This document shows, piece by piece, positions 49,185 through 57,891 of a stretch of DNA of 64,000 nucleotides. Under the pieces are notes generated by a model that was given only the letters and a program-made list of their open reading frames with translations, ran no database searches and was not told the DNA's origin. Each line of letters opens with the position of its first letter. Position 1 is the first letter of the stretch. The translations under genes were made by a program, and so were the position numbers. The DNA is from a bacterium (GTDB lineage Bacteria > Actinomycetota > Thermoleophilia > Miltoncostaeales > Miltoncostaeaceae). The stretch is from the NCBI GenBank assembly GCA_029977205.1, contig JAPOLI010000002.1, positions 1-64,000 of the forward strand. The letters are read 5' to 3'.

Positions 49185-50209
49185 GCAGCGGCGCAACTCC
49201 CTCGGAGAGCGTCGCGACACGCGTTGCCACCCCACTGCCCTGGCGACTGGACTGCCATATCGGCGCTGGTGGAGAGGCGGCAGTCGCCGATGAACTTCGC
49301 CGGGCGCTCACCGCGCGGCGCCCATGGATCCCCGCGCGGTGGTTCTACGACGATGCCGGATGCGACCTGTTCGTGCGCATCACCGACCTCGATGAGTACT
49401 ACCAGACACGCACCGAGCAGGCGCTCCTCGAGGACCACGCCCCGGAGATCGTGCGGGCGCACGGCGTGGCCGAACTCGTCGAGATCGGATCCGGCGCGGC
49501 GCGCAAGACGCGCGTGATCCTTGATGCGATGGAGGGGGCGGGAACCCTGAGGCGCTTCATCCCCTTCGACGTCAGCCCGGGCGCGATCGCCGCGAGTGCC
49601 GCCGACATCGCCGCGGCATACCCCGGCACCCGTGTCCATGGCGTGGCCGGCGACTTCGGCCGGCACCTCTCGCGCATCCCGCGGCCCCGGCAGGACGGCC
49701 GGCGCATGGTGGCATTCCTCGGAGGCACGATCGGCAACCTCGATCCGCCGCGTCGCCGCACGATGATGCGCCGCCTTGCACGGCTGATGCGGCCGGGGGA
49801 CTGCCTGCTGATGGGCACGGACCTCGCGCACGACCCCGAGGTGCTCGTGCGGGCCTACGACGACGCGCGTGGCGTCACGGCGGCGTTCAACCGCAACATC
49901 GTCCGGCACATCAACGCCGCCTACGCCGGTGACGCCGACCCCGAGCAGTTCGCCCACGTCGCGCGGTGGAATGCCCGCGCTTCACGCGTCGAGATGCACC
50001 TGCGCGCCCGGCGTGACATCGACTGGAGCATCGCCGGCCTTGGGGTGGTGCTGCCGATCGAGGCCGGGTCCACGATCCGCACTGAGATCTCGTGCAAGTT
50101 CACGCCCGCGGGGGTGCGCGCGATGTACGAGGACGCCGGCCTCGCCCTCACGGCCTGGCATGAGGATTCCCTCGGGCGGTACGCCCTCTCGGTCGCGACC
50201 GCCGGCTAG
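49181..50209 (+). CDS. egtD: L-histidine N-alpha-methyltransferase EgtD
   Basis: 342 residues. PWIPARWFYDDAGCDLFVRI, the substrate Tyr in DEYYQTRTE, SAM motif LVEIGSGAARKTRVIL, FLGGTIGNLDPPRR and C-terminal IRTEISCKFTPAGV. Trimethylates histidine to hercynine, the substrate of EgtB. ATGA overlap with egtB makes a two-gene ergothioneine operon; egtA, egtC and egtE are not in the window. Stop shares CTAG with the convergent Crp/Fnr gene. Confidence 0.95.
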   Translation: MSSGATPSESVATRVATPLPWRLDCHIGAGGEAAVADELRRALTARRPWIPARWFYDDAGCDLFVRITDLDEYYQTRTEQALLEDHAPEIVRAHGVAELVEIGSGAARKTRVILDAMEGAGTLRRFIPFDVSPGAIAASAADIAAAYPGTRVHGVAGDFGRHLSRIPRPRQDGRRMVAFLGGTIGNLDPPRRRTMMRRLARLMRPGDCLLMGTDLAHDPEVLVRAYDDARGVTAAFNRNIVRHINAAYAGDADPEQFAHVARWNARASRVEMHLRARRDIDWSIAGLGVVLPIEAGSTIRTEISCKFTPAGVRAMYEDAGLALTAWHEDSLGRYALSVATAG

Positions 50210-50832
50210 TCCTCCATCTGGCGAAGGATCACCGTGCGACGCCGCACGCTGATCTCGCCCTGCTCCTGCAGGCGACCGAGGGCCACGGTGATCGACTCAC
50301 GCGCGGCGCCGACCATGTCACCGAGCTCCTGGTGGGTCACCCTGAGGTCGAGCCGGATGCCCTCCGGCGTCACCTTCCCCCACCGTTCAGCGAGTTGCCG
50401 CAACTTGAGGATCAGCCGACGCTCGAGGCGCGGCTCGAGCGCGATCGCCGCCGACAGCTCGCGGTCCGCGACGGCGAAGGCGAGTGCCCGGATGATCCAT
50501 GCCGCGAGCGCCGGGTCCGAGAAGAGCACGTCGTCGAGCGACTCGCTGAGGACCAGCAGCTCGGCATCCGTCACCGCGCGCACCCGTGCCCCGGGTGCCC
50601 CGGGCCAGCCGCCATCCGTCAGGGCGAGGGCGTCACCCTCCTGCAGCAGCGCGATGGTGCGACTGCGCCCCGCCTCGGCGTCCACCACCACGGCGAGTCG
50701 TCCTACCGCCACGACCCCGATGTGCCCCCGGATCGTGGCCTGGGGAAGCTCCTCGCCTGCCAGCACCTGAACAGCCGTGCAGACCTCGACCAGGCGTCCG
50801 TACACCTCGTCGCTGAACCCGCCGTCGTTCAC
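50206..50832 (-). CDS. Crp/Fnr family transcriptional regulator
   Basis: 208 residues. N-terminal cyclic-nucleotide-binding-like beta barrel (QATIRGHIGVVAVGRLAVVV, TIALLQEGDALALTDGGW) and a C-terminal winged helix (RVTHQELGDMVGAARESITV ALGRLQEQG). No Fnr-type cysteine cluster is present. Start GTG at 50832 overlaps the ABC-F stop as GTGA. It faces egtD and could regulate oxidative-stress genes; that is inference. Confidence 0.85.
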   Translation of the reverse strand: MNDGGFSDEVYGRLVEVCTAVQVLAGEELPQATIRGHIGVVAVGRLAVVVDAEAGRSRTIALLQEGDALALTDGGWPGAPGARVRAVTDAELLVLSESLDDVLFSDPALAAWIIRALAFAVADRELSAAIALEPRLERRLILKLRQLAERWGKVTPEGIRLDLRVTHQELGDMVGAARESITVALGRLQEQGEISVRRRTVILRQMED

Positions 50833-52787
50833 GACCCGTCCACCAGGAGCGCCGCACGATCCTCCCACTCCGCCATGGCGTATGAGAGGTCCTCCTGCAA
50901 TGCGCGATGGCGCTCACCAAGCCGCGTCACTGCCTCGACGTCTCCGGTCGCACCCGCCTCGGCGACCTCGGCCTCGACTGCGGCGATGTCCGCCTCGATG
51001 CCGGCGATGCGCGCCTCGATCTTGCTCACCTCCCGCGCGAGACGGCCATTCGAGCGGCGCGGCGTGCGTGCGTCGGCGCCGCTCCCGCTCTCCCGGGCCG
51101 CCGCGCGCGCGCGGCGCGACACAGATCGCCCCGCCCCCGGGGCCGGGTCACCTGCTGCCGACCCCGGCCCACCACCGGTGGCACCGTCCGCAGAGTCCTC
51201 GTCAGCAGCCATCTGGCGAAGCGCCAGCAGATCCCCGTAGCCGCCCGCGCGCATCGAGGCGGTCCCCTGCTCGAGCGACAGGGTGTGCGTGGCCACGGCA
51301 TCGATCAGGGCGCGGTCGTGCGACACCAGGATGACCGTTCCGTCATAGGCCAGGAGTGCATCCTCGAGCGCCTCGCGGCTCTCGACGTCCAGATGGTTCG
51401 TGGGCTCATCGAGGACCAGGAGGTTCCCGCCCTCCGCGACAAGCTCCACGAGCCCGAGGCGGCGGCGCTCACCACCGGAGAGATCCTCCACGAGGCGATC
51501 GGCCATCTCGCCGCTGAACAGGAAGCGCCCGAGCAGCGTGCGTGCCTCCGTCTCGGTGAGCGCGCTGCCCGCCTTGACCGTCTCGGCGAGGCTCCTGCTG
51601 CCGTCGTACTCGCGCGCGTGCTGCGTGAAGTACGACGGCATCACCTTGTGTCCCATGCTCACCCGTCCGGATGCGGCCTCGCGGCGCCCGAGCAGGGTCT
51701 CGACCGTCGTGGTCTTCCCTGCCCCGTTCGGCCCGACGACGGCGACGCGCTGGCCCCGCTCGATCGTGAAGCCCGCCTCATGCACGAGCGATCGGCCCGC
51801 GACCTCCACGGAGAGCCCGTCCGCCTCGAGCACCACGCGGCCTGGTCGGTCGGTCTTTGGAAACCCGAACGACAGGGACTTCTCGCGTGTCGGTGCGGCG
51901 ACAGGTTCGATCCGGTCGCGCCGGCGCGCACGCGATCGGGCCTGCTTGGCCTTCGTCCCCGCGCGCCAGCGGGTGATGAACCGGTCGAGTCGCTCGATCT
52001 CCGCGCGGCGCTTCTCGGCAATGGCCGCCTGCTGCGCATCCTCCTCTGCGCGTGCCCGCCGGAATGCGGAGTATCCCATCGGCCAGTGCGTGGCCCGCCC
52101 ATCGGCGATCTCGAGCACCGAGGTCGCGGTCGACTCGAGGAACCAGCGATCGTGCGAGACGATCACCACGGCGGCACCGATGTCCCGCACGATCCCCTCG
52201 AGCCACTCCATCGCCTCCAGGTCGAGGTGGTTGGTGGGCTCATCGAGGAGCAGCACCTGGGGCCGGCCGGCAAGTGCCCGCGCGAGGGAGGCACGCGTGA
52301 GCTCTCCCCCGGACAGGCTCGTGAGGGGGCGATCCAGATGCGCGTCGGTCAACCCGAGGCCGCGCGTCACGCGCTCCACCCACGCACGCCAGTGGTACCC
52401 GCCGGCAGCCTCGAGGTCGGTCTGCGCGCGGTCGTAGTCCCTCATGGTCGCGGGCCCATGGTCGCCGCTCGACATGCGGGCCTCGAGCGCGGCCATGCGC
52501 TCCTCCGCATCACGGGCGTGGGCGAGGCCCTGCTCGACGTATTCGCGCACGCTGCCGGCCGCCCGGGCGTCTGGCCGCTGGTCATGCAGGGCCACGCGCT
52601 CACCGCGAGGGATGGACACCGACCCGGAGTCGGCCTCGTCTATTCCCGCGAGGATCCGCAGAAGAGTGGTCTTGCCCGCGCCATTTCGCCCCGCCACGGC
52701 CAGGCGGTCACCAGGACCGATCCGGAACGAGACATTGGCGAAGAGAGTGCGCGGACCGAACGCCTTTGTCAGTCCCGTTACCTGCAC
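50829..52787 (-). CDS. ABC-F family ATPase, ribosome-associated type
   Basis: 652 residues, two ABC domains without membrane segments. Walker A GRNGAGKTT and GPNGAGKTT, signatures LSGGELTRA and LSGGERRRLG, Walker B VLLLDEPTNHLDLEAM and LLVLDEPTNHLDVES. An arginine-rich linker lies between them and a charged coiled coil at the C-terminus. Members act on the ribosome in translation control or drug resistance (EttA, Uup and antibiotic-protection groups); the subgroup is not decided here. GTG start at 52787, three bases from a shared palindromic promoter. Confidence 0.92.
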   Translation of the reverse strand: MQVTGLTKAFGPRTLFANVSFRIGPGDRLAVAGRNGAGKTTLLRILAGIDEADSGSVSIPRGERVALHDQRPDARAAGSVREYVEQGLAHARDAEERMAALEARMSSGDHGPATMRDYDRAQTDLEAAGGYHWRAWVERVTRGLGLTDAHLDRPLTSLSGGELTRASLARALAGRPQVLLLDEPTNHLDLEAMEWLEGIVRDIGAAVVIVSHDRWFLESTATSVLEIADGRATHWPMGYSAFRRARAEEDAQQAAIAEKRRAEIERLDRFITRWRAGTKAKQARSRARRRDRIEPVAAPTREKSLSFGFPKTDRPGRVVLEADGLSVEVAGRSLVHEAGFTIERGQRVAVVGPNGAGKTTTVETLLGRREAASGRVSMGHKVMPSYFTQHAREYDGSRSLAETVKAGSALTETEARTLLGRFLFSGEMADRLVEDLSGGERRRLGLVELVAEGGNLLVLDEPTNHLDVESREALEDALLAYDGTVILVSHDRALIDAVATHTLSLEQGTASMRAGGYGDLLALRQMAADEDSADGATGGGPGSAAGDPAPGAGRSVSRRARAAARESGSGADARTPRRSNGRLAREVSKIEARIAGIEADIAAVEAEVAEAGATGDVEAVTRLGERHRALQEDLSYAMAEWEDRAALLVDGS

Positions 52788-52790
52788 TGC

Positions 52791-52804
52791 GCCTAATGTT
52801 AGGC
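52791..52804. promoter_or_regulatory. Palindromic bidirectional promoter between the ABC-F and RNase D genes
   Basis: GCCTAATGTTAGGC, arms of six with a TG centre. On the plus strand it gives TAATGT and on the minus TAACAT, each eight bases before a GTG start (52808 and 52787). The two -10 boxes overlap by four bases, so both genes should be leaderless and compete for polymerase. Confidence 0.6.
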
Positions 52805-52807
52805 ACA

Positions 52808-53998
52808 GTGAGCGATCAGACGAGCATGCTCGTCACGCCCGAGGAGGTCACCGACCTCGCCGGCCGCGTGCGGGGCCACGGGCGCATGGCGCTGGATGTC
52901 GAGTTCCTGTGGGAGCGCACCTATGCACCGATCCCCTGCCTCGCCCAGGTCGCGACGCCCGATGAGATCGCCCTCGTCGACCCCATCGAGGGCGGGGCCC
53001 TCAACGCGGTTGCGGAACTGCTCGCCGACCCCGATGTCGAGGTCGTGATGCACGCGCCGAGCGCGGACCTCACACTGTTCGCTCTGGGATTCGACGTGCG
53101 CCCCTCGCGGCTGCTCGACTCCCAGTTGATCGCGGGCTTCGTGGGCCTGGGCGCCGGGCAGAGCCTGGGCGCCCTGCTGCAGAGGGTCCTGGACATCCGG
53201 GTGCCCAAGACCGAGGGGTACTCAGACTGGTCGCGGCGTCCGCTCACACGGGCGCAGCTGGAGTACGCGGCGACCGACGTGGCCCACCTGTTCGCCATGG
53301 TTGACGAGCTCATGAGGCGCGCGACCGCGCTCGGGCGTCGCGAGTGGGTGCTCGAGGAGCATGAGCGCCGCTACGGTCCGTCGGCGCGCGTGGCCCCGGA
53401 TCCGCTCGAGGCGTGGAGGAAGGTCAAGGGGCAGGGGCGCCTCCAGCCAGCAGAGCGCGCGGTCCTGCGCAGGGCCGCCGCATGGCGCGAGACCGAGGCG
53501 CGACGCCGTGACCGACCGGTGGGATGGCTTCTGCCCGACCGGACACTCATCGAGGTCGCACGGCGCAGGCCGACGAGCCCCGGGGCCCTCCTCGACGAGC
53601 GCGGGGTCCCGTCGGCGATGCGCGAGAGCGAGGCCGCAGCGCTCATCAGGGCGATGGACGAGGGTGCACACGACCCGCCCATCGCCCTCGGGCCACCGCC
53701 GCCGGCAAAGGTGCAGGCGCGCCTCGACACACTCACCCCCCTTGCACAGATACTGCTCACGGCGCGCTCAGCGGCCGTCGAGCTCGCGCCGACCCTCGTC
53801 GCGACGCGCGATGACGTCGACGCCTTCCTGGCGGCCGTCCTCATGGATGAGCCCCTCGAGGCACTCCCCCTCGGGCGTGGCTGGCGGCGGGAGGTGGCCG
53901 GCGATGCATTGATCGACCTCGCGGCCGGCCGCCTGGGCCTTGCACCGCTGTCCGAGTCGCCGTTCCTTGCGGAGATCTCGCTCCCCGGCCACGAGTGA
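52808..53998 (+). CDS. rnd: Ribonuclease D-type 3'-5' exonuclease
   Basis: 396 residues. DEDDy nuclease core: MALDVEFLWERTYAPIPCLA (Asp and Glu), VVMHAPSADLTLFALGF (Asp), and LEYAATDVAHLFAM (Tyr-x3-Asp). HRDC-like helical region follows (ERAVLRRAAAWRETEARRRD). Trims tRNA 3' ends and other RNAs. GTG at 52808 follows the palindromic promoter; an in-frame ATG at 52826 is a weaker choice. Confidence 0.93.
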   Translation: MSDQTSMLVTPEEVTDLAGRVRGHGRMALDVEFLWERTYAPIPCLAQVATPDEIALVDPIEGGALNAVAELLADPDVEVVMHAPSADLTLFALGFDVRPSRLLDSQLIAGFVGLGAGQSLGALLQRVLDIRVPKTEGYSDWSRRPLTRAQLEYAATDVAHLFAMVDELMRRATALGRREWVLEEHERRYGPSARVAPDPLEAWRKVKGQGRLQPAERAVLRRAAAWRETEARRRDRPVGWLLPDRTLIEVARRRPTSPGALLDERGVPSAMRESEAAALIRAMDEGAHDPPIALGPPPPAKVQARLDTLTPLAQILLTARSAAVELAPTLVATRDDVDAFLAAVLMDEPLEALPLGRGWRREVAGDALIDLAAGRLGLAPLSESPFLAEISLPGHE

Positions 53999-56666: not shown

Positions 56667-57026
56667 CTACCCTCCGGCGATCGTGACGCGGTAGCGCGCT
56701 CCGAGATGGGCCGCGACCGCGTCCCGGTGGTCGCCCTGCACCTCCACCACGCCGTCCTTCACCGCTCCACCCGAGCCGCACAGGCGCTTGAGCTCGCGGG
56801 CGATGTCGCGCAGTTCGGCGGGTGGGAGCCCCGTGACCAGGGTCACGGTCTTGCCCTTGCGCCCGGCCTTCGTCCGCGACACCCGAACGATCCCGTCGGC
56901 GCTCCCCGCCGAACGTCCGGCCTGCGTCGGCGCGGGATCAGGCGACGGCACCCCGCGCGTGCCGTCCGGGCCGCTCGAGTACACCGTGGAGGCGTCCGCG
57001 CTCGTGTCGCGTCGAATACGTGCCAT
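56667..57026 (-). CDS. SUI1/YciH family translation factor
   Basis: 119 residues. A disordered N-terminal tail followed by the SUI1 fold: RTKAGRKGKTVTLVTGLP, ELRDIARELKRLCGSGG and DGVVEVQGDHRDAVAAHLGA. Homologues of eIF1 influence start-codon choice; the bacterial role is not settled. ATG at 57026. Paired divergently with the PHP gene through a symmetric promoter. Confidence 0.92.
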   Translation of the reverse strand: MARIRRDTSADASTVYSSGPDGTRGVPSPDPAPTQAGRSAGSADGIVRVSRTKAGRKGKTVTLVTGLPPAELRDIARELKRLCGSGGAVKDGVVEVQGDHRDAVAAHLGARYRVTIAGG

Positions 57027-57035
57027 GCCCAGGCG

Positions 57036-57045
57036 ATGGTACCGT
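57036..57045. promoter_or_regulatory. Symmetric divergent promoter between the SUI1 and PHP genes
   Basis: Minus-strand TACCAT (57036-57041) and plus-strand TACCGT (57040-57045) overlap by two bases within a near-palindrome around GGTACC. Both lie nine bases before an ATG (57026 and 57055). Confidence 0.55.
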
Positions 57046-57054
57046 CGCCGCCGA

Positions 57055-57891
57055 ATGGCGCACGACCTCCACCTCCACACGAATCGCTCCGATGGGTCAC
57101 ACGACCCCGTCGATCTCGTGGAGTACGCGGCGACGCGCGGCGTCGACGTGGTGGCGATCACCGACCACGACACCATGGCCGGGGTCGTCGAGGCCGAGGA
57201 GGCGGGCCGTGCCATCGGCGTGACGGTGATCCCCGGAATCGAACTGTCGATCAAGGTTCCGCACGGCAGCATGCACTTGCTGGGGTACTTCCCCGATCAG
57301 GCCCCCGAGCCCCTCGCCGGCCTCATCGCGGGCTTCGGCGAGAAGCGCGTGGAGCGCGCGAGGGAGATGGTGGACCGCCTGAACGACATGGGCGTGACGC
57401 TCGACTGGCAGGACGTCCTCGACGGCGCGGCGGGCGCCCCCCTCGGACGCCCGCACATCGCCGAGGCCCTGATGCGCGCGGGGCACGTGAGCGAGCGCAA
57501 GGAGGCCTTCGACCTCTACCTCGGCGATGGGCGCCCGGCATACGTGGGATCGGACGGCCTCGACGTGGAGGAGGGCATCACGCTCGTGCGCGACTCGGGC
57601 GGCGCACCGGTGCTGGCGCACCCCTACACGCTGAGGCTCGACGACGCGCATCTCGACCCGTTCGTGGGCCGGCTGGCGCAGGCCGGCCTGGCCGGAATCG
57701 AGGTGCATCGTCCGGAGTACACGCCGGACCAGTTCGCCACGTACGGCGCCCTCGCCCGCAGGTACGGGCTGGTCCCATCCGGCGGGTCCGACTACCACCG
57801 GCCCACGAGCCCGCACCACCCCGGTTCCACGGGCGATCCGCCCCTGCCGGAGGAGACGGTCGACCGCCTGCTGGCGGCGGCGCTGGGCTAA
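57055..57891 (+). CDS. PHP domain phosphoesterase, RNase AM/TrpH-like
   Basis: 278 residues. Metal-binding motifs DLHLHTNRSDG (His, His), VVAITDHDTMAG (Asp-His), PGIELS (Glu), VLAHPY (His) and GGSDYH (Asp-His) are all present. Related enzymes hydrolyse nucleoside 3',5'-bisphosphates or trim RNA 5' ends. ATG at 57055. Its stop codon lies inside the -10 box of the next gene. Confidence 0.9.
   Translation: MAHDLHLHTNRSDGSHDPVDLVEYAATRGVDVVAITDHDTMAGVVEAEEAGRAIGVTVIPGIELSIKVPHGSMHLLGYFPDQAPEPLAGLIAGFGEKRVERAREMVDRLNDMGVTLDWQDVLDGAAGAPLGRPHIAEALMRAGHVSERKEAFDLYLGDGRPAYVGSDGLDVEEGITLVRDSGGAPVLAHPYTLRLDDAHLDPFVGRLAQAGLAGIEVHRPEYTPDQFATYGALARRYGLVPSGGSDYHRPTSPHHPGSTGDPPLPEETVDRLLAAALG

Follow-up and report, generated by a model that had tools for sequence, protein, structure and literature searches.

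The window, that is, the whole 64,000-nucleotide stretch of DNA that was analyzed, contains two divergently oriented genes with exactly 20 bp between their GTG start codons. The leftward gene encodes an ABC-F ATPase (NCBIfam NF000355, 408.8 bits versus a cutoff of 380), and the rightward gene an RNase D-like 3'-5' exonuclease (PF01612 plus HRDC; its TIGR01388 score of 267.8 bits is slightly below the cutoff of 298.95), in agreement with a preliminary description of the locus. A Crp/Fnr-family regulator gene is located downstream of ABC-F, also in those same-genus loci that extend far enough, and is probably the second gene of the leftward transcript, in one operon with ABC-F. The coordinates of all features are listed in the table.

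Features of the ABC-F/RNase D locus and of a second divergent intergenic region (positions in the window)
Feature	Position	Strand	Remark
Crp/Fnr-family regulator gene	50206..50868	-	overlaps 3' end of ABC-F gene
ABC-F ATPase gene	50829..52787	-	652 aa, GTG start; profile matches
GTG codon of ABC-F	52787-52785	-	
Proposed bidirectional promoter	52788..52807	none	entire intergenic region, 20 bp
Imperfect palindrome GCCTAATGTTAGGC	52791..52804	none	6-bp arms, TG center
TAATGT, -10-like box of RNase D gene	52794..52799	+	8 nt before GTG
TAACAT, -10-like box of ABC-F gene	52796..52801	-	8 nt before GTG
GTG codon of RNase D	52808-52810	+	
RNase D-like 3'-5' exonuclease gene	52808..53998	+	HRDC domain, GTG start; profile matches
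SUI1 gene	ATG at 57026	-	Pfam identity taken from the G018 homologue
SUI1/PHP intergenic region	57027-57054	divergent	core ATGGTACCGT at 57036-57045; 4.2 kb from the ABC-F/RNase D site
PHP-domain phosphoesterase gene	ATG at 57055	+	Pfam identity taken from the G018 homologue

Both start codons are supported by the relatives, which exchange GTG, ATG, and TTG at the same position in each gene. The box contains an in-frame ATG (52796), which was considered as the RNase D start and rejected, since it is absent from relatives with TAATCTTA and TAACCTTA. No Shine-Dalgarno sequence precedes either gene: the best match to AGGAGG was 4/6 before ABC-F, within the box region, and 3/6 before the RNase D gene. 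In one same-genus genome (G003; 99% complete), no RNase D match was detected; because its ABC-F contig ends within the gene, RNase D loss and an assembly gap are indistinguishable there.

The 26 bp at 52785-52810 read CACTGCGCCTAATGTTAGGCACAGTG and are symmetric at 22 positions. The preliminary description had recognized TAATGT on one strand and TAACAT on the other, each eight bases from a GTG, with four bases in common and with the GTGs three bases outside the ends of a 14-bp palindrome. The boxes are indeed found at 52794-52799 on the forward strand and at 52801-52796 on the reverse strand, share positions 52796-52799, and the distances agree. The palindrome has 6-bp arms (GCCTAA and TTAGGC, which pair), but it is not perfect, since its central TG is asymmetric and unpaired. 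GCCTAATGTTAGGC occurs as a single exact copy in the genome, and its core TAANNTTA is found once in the 64-kb window. Palindromes of the 6-2-6 type arise frequently by chance (the window has 57, and five shuffles have 32 to 63); therefore, the palindrome alone carries little weight, and we rejected any statistical argument based on it by itself.

In Actinobacteria, leaderless genes are marked by TANNNT some 12 bp ahead of the start (PMC3160421). We counted TANNNT spacings in 400 kb of the same-genus genome G018 (71% GC; 354 genes predicted with a home-made gene caller) and found a peak 6, 7, 8, and 9 nt before candidate starts, with counts of 26, 27, 19, and 8. Counts at other spacings near the start were mostly 0 to 4 (about 2 to 3), and the reversed motif showed no such peak. 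In the window's own genes, the corresponding counts were 5, 4, 4, and 2, compared to 0 to 2 elsewhere. Because of this peak, which is consistent with the TANNNT-type leaderless genes reported for Actinobacteria (PMC3160421), about 20% of the genes in the genus look leaderless. Both boxes of the ABC-F/RNase D region, at 8 nt, fall inside the peak, and their spacing is similar in the relatives. With TANNNT at the peak spacing (first T 14 nt before GTG or ATG) and no Shine-Dalgarno sequence, both genes resemble the leaderless genes of Actinobacteria, including Mycobacterium tuberculosis (PMC3160421; PMC3898074). They differ from these in that the two signals interlock on opposite strands.

For comparison, the ABC-F/RNase D pair was collected from 33 genomes, most of the relatives being metagenome-assembled, representing about 10 genera of one family (Miltoncostaeales, Thermoleophilia). 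Four contigs with the actinobacterial locus (L034, L039, L042, and L045) bear titles like Bifidobacterium breve or Acidobacteria and are likely mislabeled. Overlapping -10-like elements on opposite strands were retained in 29/33 divergent pairs, with start codons 20 to 22 bp apart. Seventeen pairs carry TAANNTTA, with four bases in common, and 12 carry TANNNTA, with five; in the remaining 4, the boxes are separate. The distance from the ABC-F box to the start is 8 nt in nearly all 33 pairs (7 nt in two), and that from the RNase D box is 6 to 9 nt. The presence of both boxes together is not due to chance.

Within the genus, 14 sequences could be compared without gaps. The T, A, and T columns of the TAATGT box show no change in them. 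The six-base core has four invariant positions; the other two vary only in G012, where the changes turn TAATGTTA into TAATGTA and both boxes are retained. Third codon positions nearby had a mean entropy of 1.0 bit; 3/38 were invariant, none of them A or T in this 71% GC genome. The pattern CAH-N6-TAANNTTA-N6-DTG was present exactly once per genome in 13/20 same-genus genomes, always between ABC-F and RNase D, and its reversed control gave no matches in the 20 genomes. For the TANNNTA core, the pattern with 7/7 spacers (CAH-N6-TANNNTA-N6-DTG) was found in 3/42 genomes, below its control and never at the ABC-F/RNase D locus. With 8/7 spacers, it recovered the pair in other genera; its unrelated matches were about equal to the control, so this core is informative by position only.

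Core changes in the relatives lead to other arrangements still carrying both TANNNT boxes. Furthermore, the constraint imposed by both boxes is limited to TAA/TTA, and the outer arms GCC/GGC are not kept throughout. The alignments indicate that the boxes are conserved while the palindrome itself changes. The preliminary description had suggested looking for the palindrome in related genomes; this comparison did not refute the promoter, since the boxes are kept across the family, but the palindrome gives way to TANNNTA in other genera.

The four genomes with separate boxes (G014; G030; G022 and G033) have start-to-start distances of 31, 42, 76, and 84 bp, and both genes still have TANNNT 7 to 8 nt before the start. 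In a tree of RNase D from 30 genomes, which is unrooted, so that the direction of change is not proven, the overlapping arrangement is present on either side of the midpoint root. The tree requires a minimum of two changes of register and three independent separations of the boxes (G014; G030; G022 plus G033). G064 and G065, close relatives of G030 in the same genus, carry TAGGGTA, which suggests that the separation in the G030 lineage arose from an overlapping state.

A second region of this kind was found between SUI1 and PHP. Like the ABC-F/RNase D region, it has two overlapping TANNNT boxes between divergent genes and is conserved in the genus; it differs in that the boxes share only the central TA of ATGGTACCGT and in its spacers of 7 to 10 nt. 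In the genus loci examined where both starts were readable, these are 26 to 30 bp apart, and in another genus (g8; G026) the SUI1/PHP pair has TAGGCTA. The SUI1/PHP region is apparently a second bidirectional promoter, leaderless on both sides. Since it has interlocked boxes too, the ABC-F/RNase D promoter would not be a lone oddity in the genus. A conserved TAGGGTA core between start codons was also noted at L127 to L130 (G019, G013, G007, and G015), flanked by a 71-aa membrane-like open reading frame on one side and only a 16-aa open reading frame on the other; this core is probably one-sided or antisense.

Geometry, conservation, and the genus-wide leaderless signal were all read directly from the genomes. 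From them we infer recognition by sigma, the 5' ends, transcription in both directions, and coupled expression. We consider it very likely that the 20 bp between the genes act as a bidirectional promoter giving two leaderless mRNAs and coupled low-level expression, with no switch. RNA polymerase with the housekeeping sigma factor would bind the common AT-rich core in either orientation, reading it as TAATGT rightward and as TAACAT leftward, and the RNA would begin at each GTG or within one or two bases of it. The RNase D mRNA and the ABC-F mRNA, the latter with the Crp-like regulator, would both be leaderless and translated independently of a Shine-Dalgarno sequence. Each binding event would serve one gene, and at ordinary firing rates both would be expressed side by side, resulting in coupled, compact, low-level expression from one element. 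A search near the site revealed neither a consensus promoter with -35 and -10 elements nor a terminator. The mirror-symmetric promoter of two divergent, apparently leaderless genes postulated in the preliminary description is thus supported by the comparison across the family.

Symmetry of a common -10 element is known to give divergent transcription with starts 7 to 25 bp apart (PMC10268837; PMC12825309). The ABC-F/RNase D region resembles these promoters, described by Warman, Grainger, and coworkers in Escherichia coli and other prokaryotes, in that an AT-rich core is a -10 element on both strands and mRNAs, here predicted from sequence, are made both ways. The predicted start separation, from 17 bp (canonical -7 spacing) to 21 bp (starts at the GTGs), falls within this range; 17 bp differs from the commonest distances of 18, 10, or 23 bp, and spacing is variable. 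In the TANNNTA arrangement, -7T and -11A coincide (PMC10268837). Unlike the known promoters, the genus has a four-base overlap (TAANNTTA) rather than this commonest reciprocal form, the start codons directly flank the core with no leader on either side, and the arrangement is kept across genera for one gene pair. In the open literature, we found no direct precedent for leaderless bidirectional promoters or for leaderless genes in Thermoleophilia. We propose that the promoter is of a known kind and that its strong conservation and double leaderlessness are the new part.

The preliminary description had gone further, linking the two genes in a mutually exclusive switch, i.e., an overlap that evolved for antagonistic expression of ABC-F and RNase D. 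The four or five common bases would prevent two polymerases from binding together, so that simultaneous steric exclusion is plausible, and the retention of the overlap in most pairs is in line with such a role. Moreover, in E. coli a strongly activated direction can lead to repression of the opposite one (PMC12825309). However, repression of one side was observed there only upon such activation, and the basal activity of five E. coli bidirectional promoters studied by experiment was too low for polymerase competition (PMC12825309). No activator or transcription factor binding site was identified at our locus, and we see no biological reason for a translation ATPase and RNase D to exclude each other. 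The overlap was lost in G014, G030, and G022/G033, requiring three or more changes on the tree, and neither apparently leaderless gene was lost with it. Exclusion is therefore dispensable for the pair, since these lineages keep both genes, each with its own box. We consider a switch improbable, and this part of the preliminary description was not upheld.

An inverted repeat between divergent genes could also be the operator of a dimeric transcription factor, possibly of the Crp-like regulator, whose gene follows ABC-F in comparable same-genus loci. We regard this as very unlikely. CCTAANNTTAGG is present at this locus only in the 12 genomes having it and nowhere in the other 8; with copies elsewhere absent from all 20 genus genomes, it has no regulon, and a purely local regulator is possible. 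The outer arms differ even within the genus (CC/GG, TC/GC, AC/GC, and CG/CC), and in other genera the palindrome is replaced by nonpalindromic TAGGGTA, TAGGCTA, or TACATTA, while both TANNNT boxes stay. The known Crp/Fnr sites are longer, and the 12-bp site does not appear to match them. On the grounds of the missing copies and the lost palindrome, the regulator-site reading was rejected. There is likewise little chance that only one box works as a promoter and that the other simply reflects the symmetry of -10 elements, even though near-symmetry is found in most -10 elements and divergent transcription is often incidental (PMC10268837): in all 33 pairs, each box keeps its distance from the start codon of its gene, and genes whose boxes have separated each retain one. 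In vivo, the activity of one box could nevertheless be weak or absent. Finally, a stem is possible on the transcript strand, but its folding is insignificant (z -1.65; 13/200 shuffles equally good), searches gave no Rfam match of note and no terminator, and a leaderless mRNA would exclude the element. An RNA element, hairpin, or terminator in place of a promoter was therefore rejected as extremely improbable.

The predicted bidirectional promoter is a compact natural example of a symmetric promoter that takes up a complete intergenic region and leaves neither gene a leader. Since the core is bordered by conserved start codons, a direct comparison of genomes reveals how the box register has moved. 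The locus may serve as a test case for the reason why bidirectional promoters persist (coupled expression, interference, or compactness), and it argues against calling promoter overlap alone a switch without data. For the family, we tentatively suggest, as a rather doubtful possibility, that selection keeps leaderless promoters with a shared core because they would hold an RNA-processing nuclease and a translation factor at a constant ratio (RNase D with ABC-F, and PHP phosphoesterase with SUI1); the core could slip by one base, from a four- to a five-base overlap, with the distance between the start codons staying near 21 bp.
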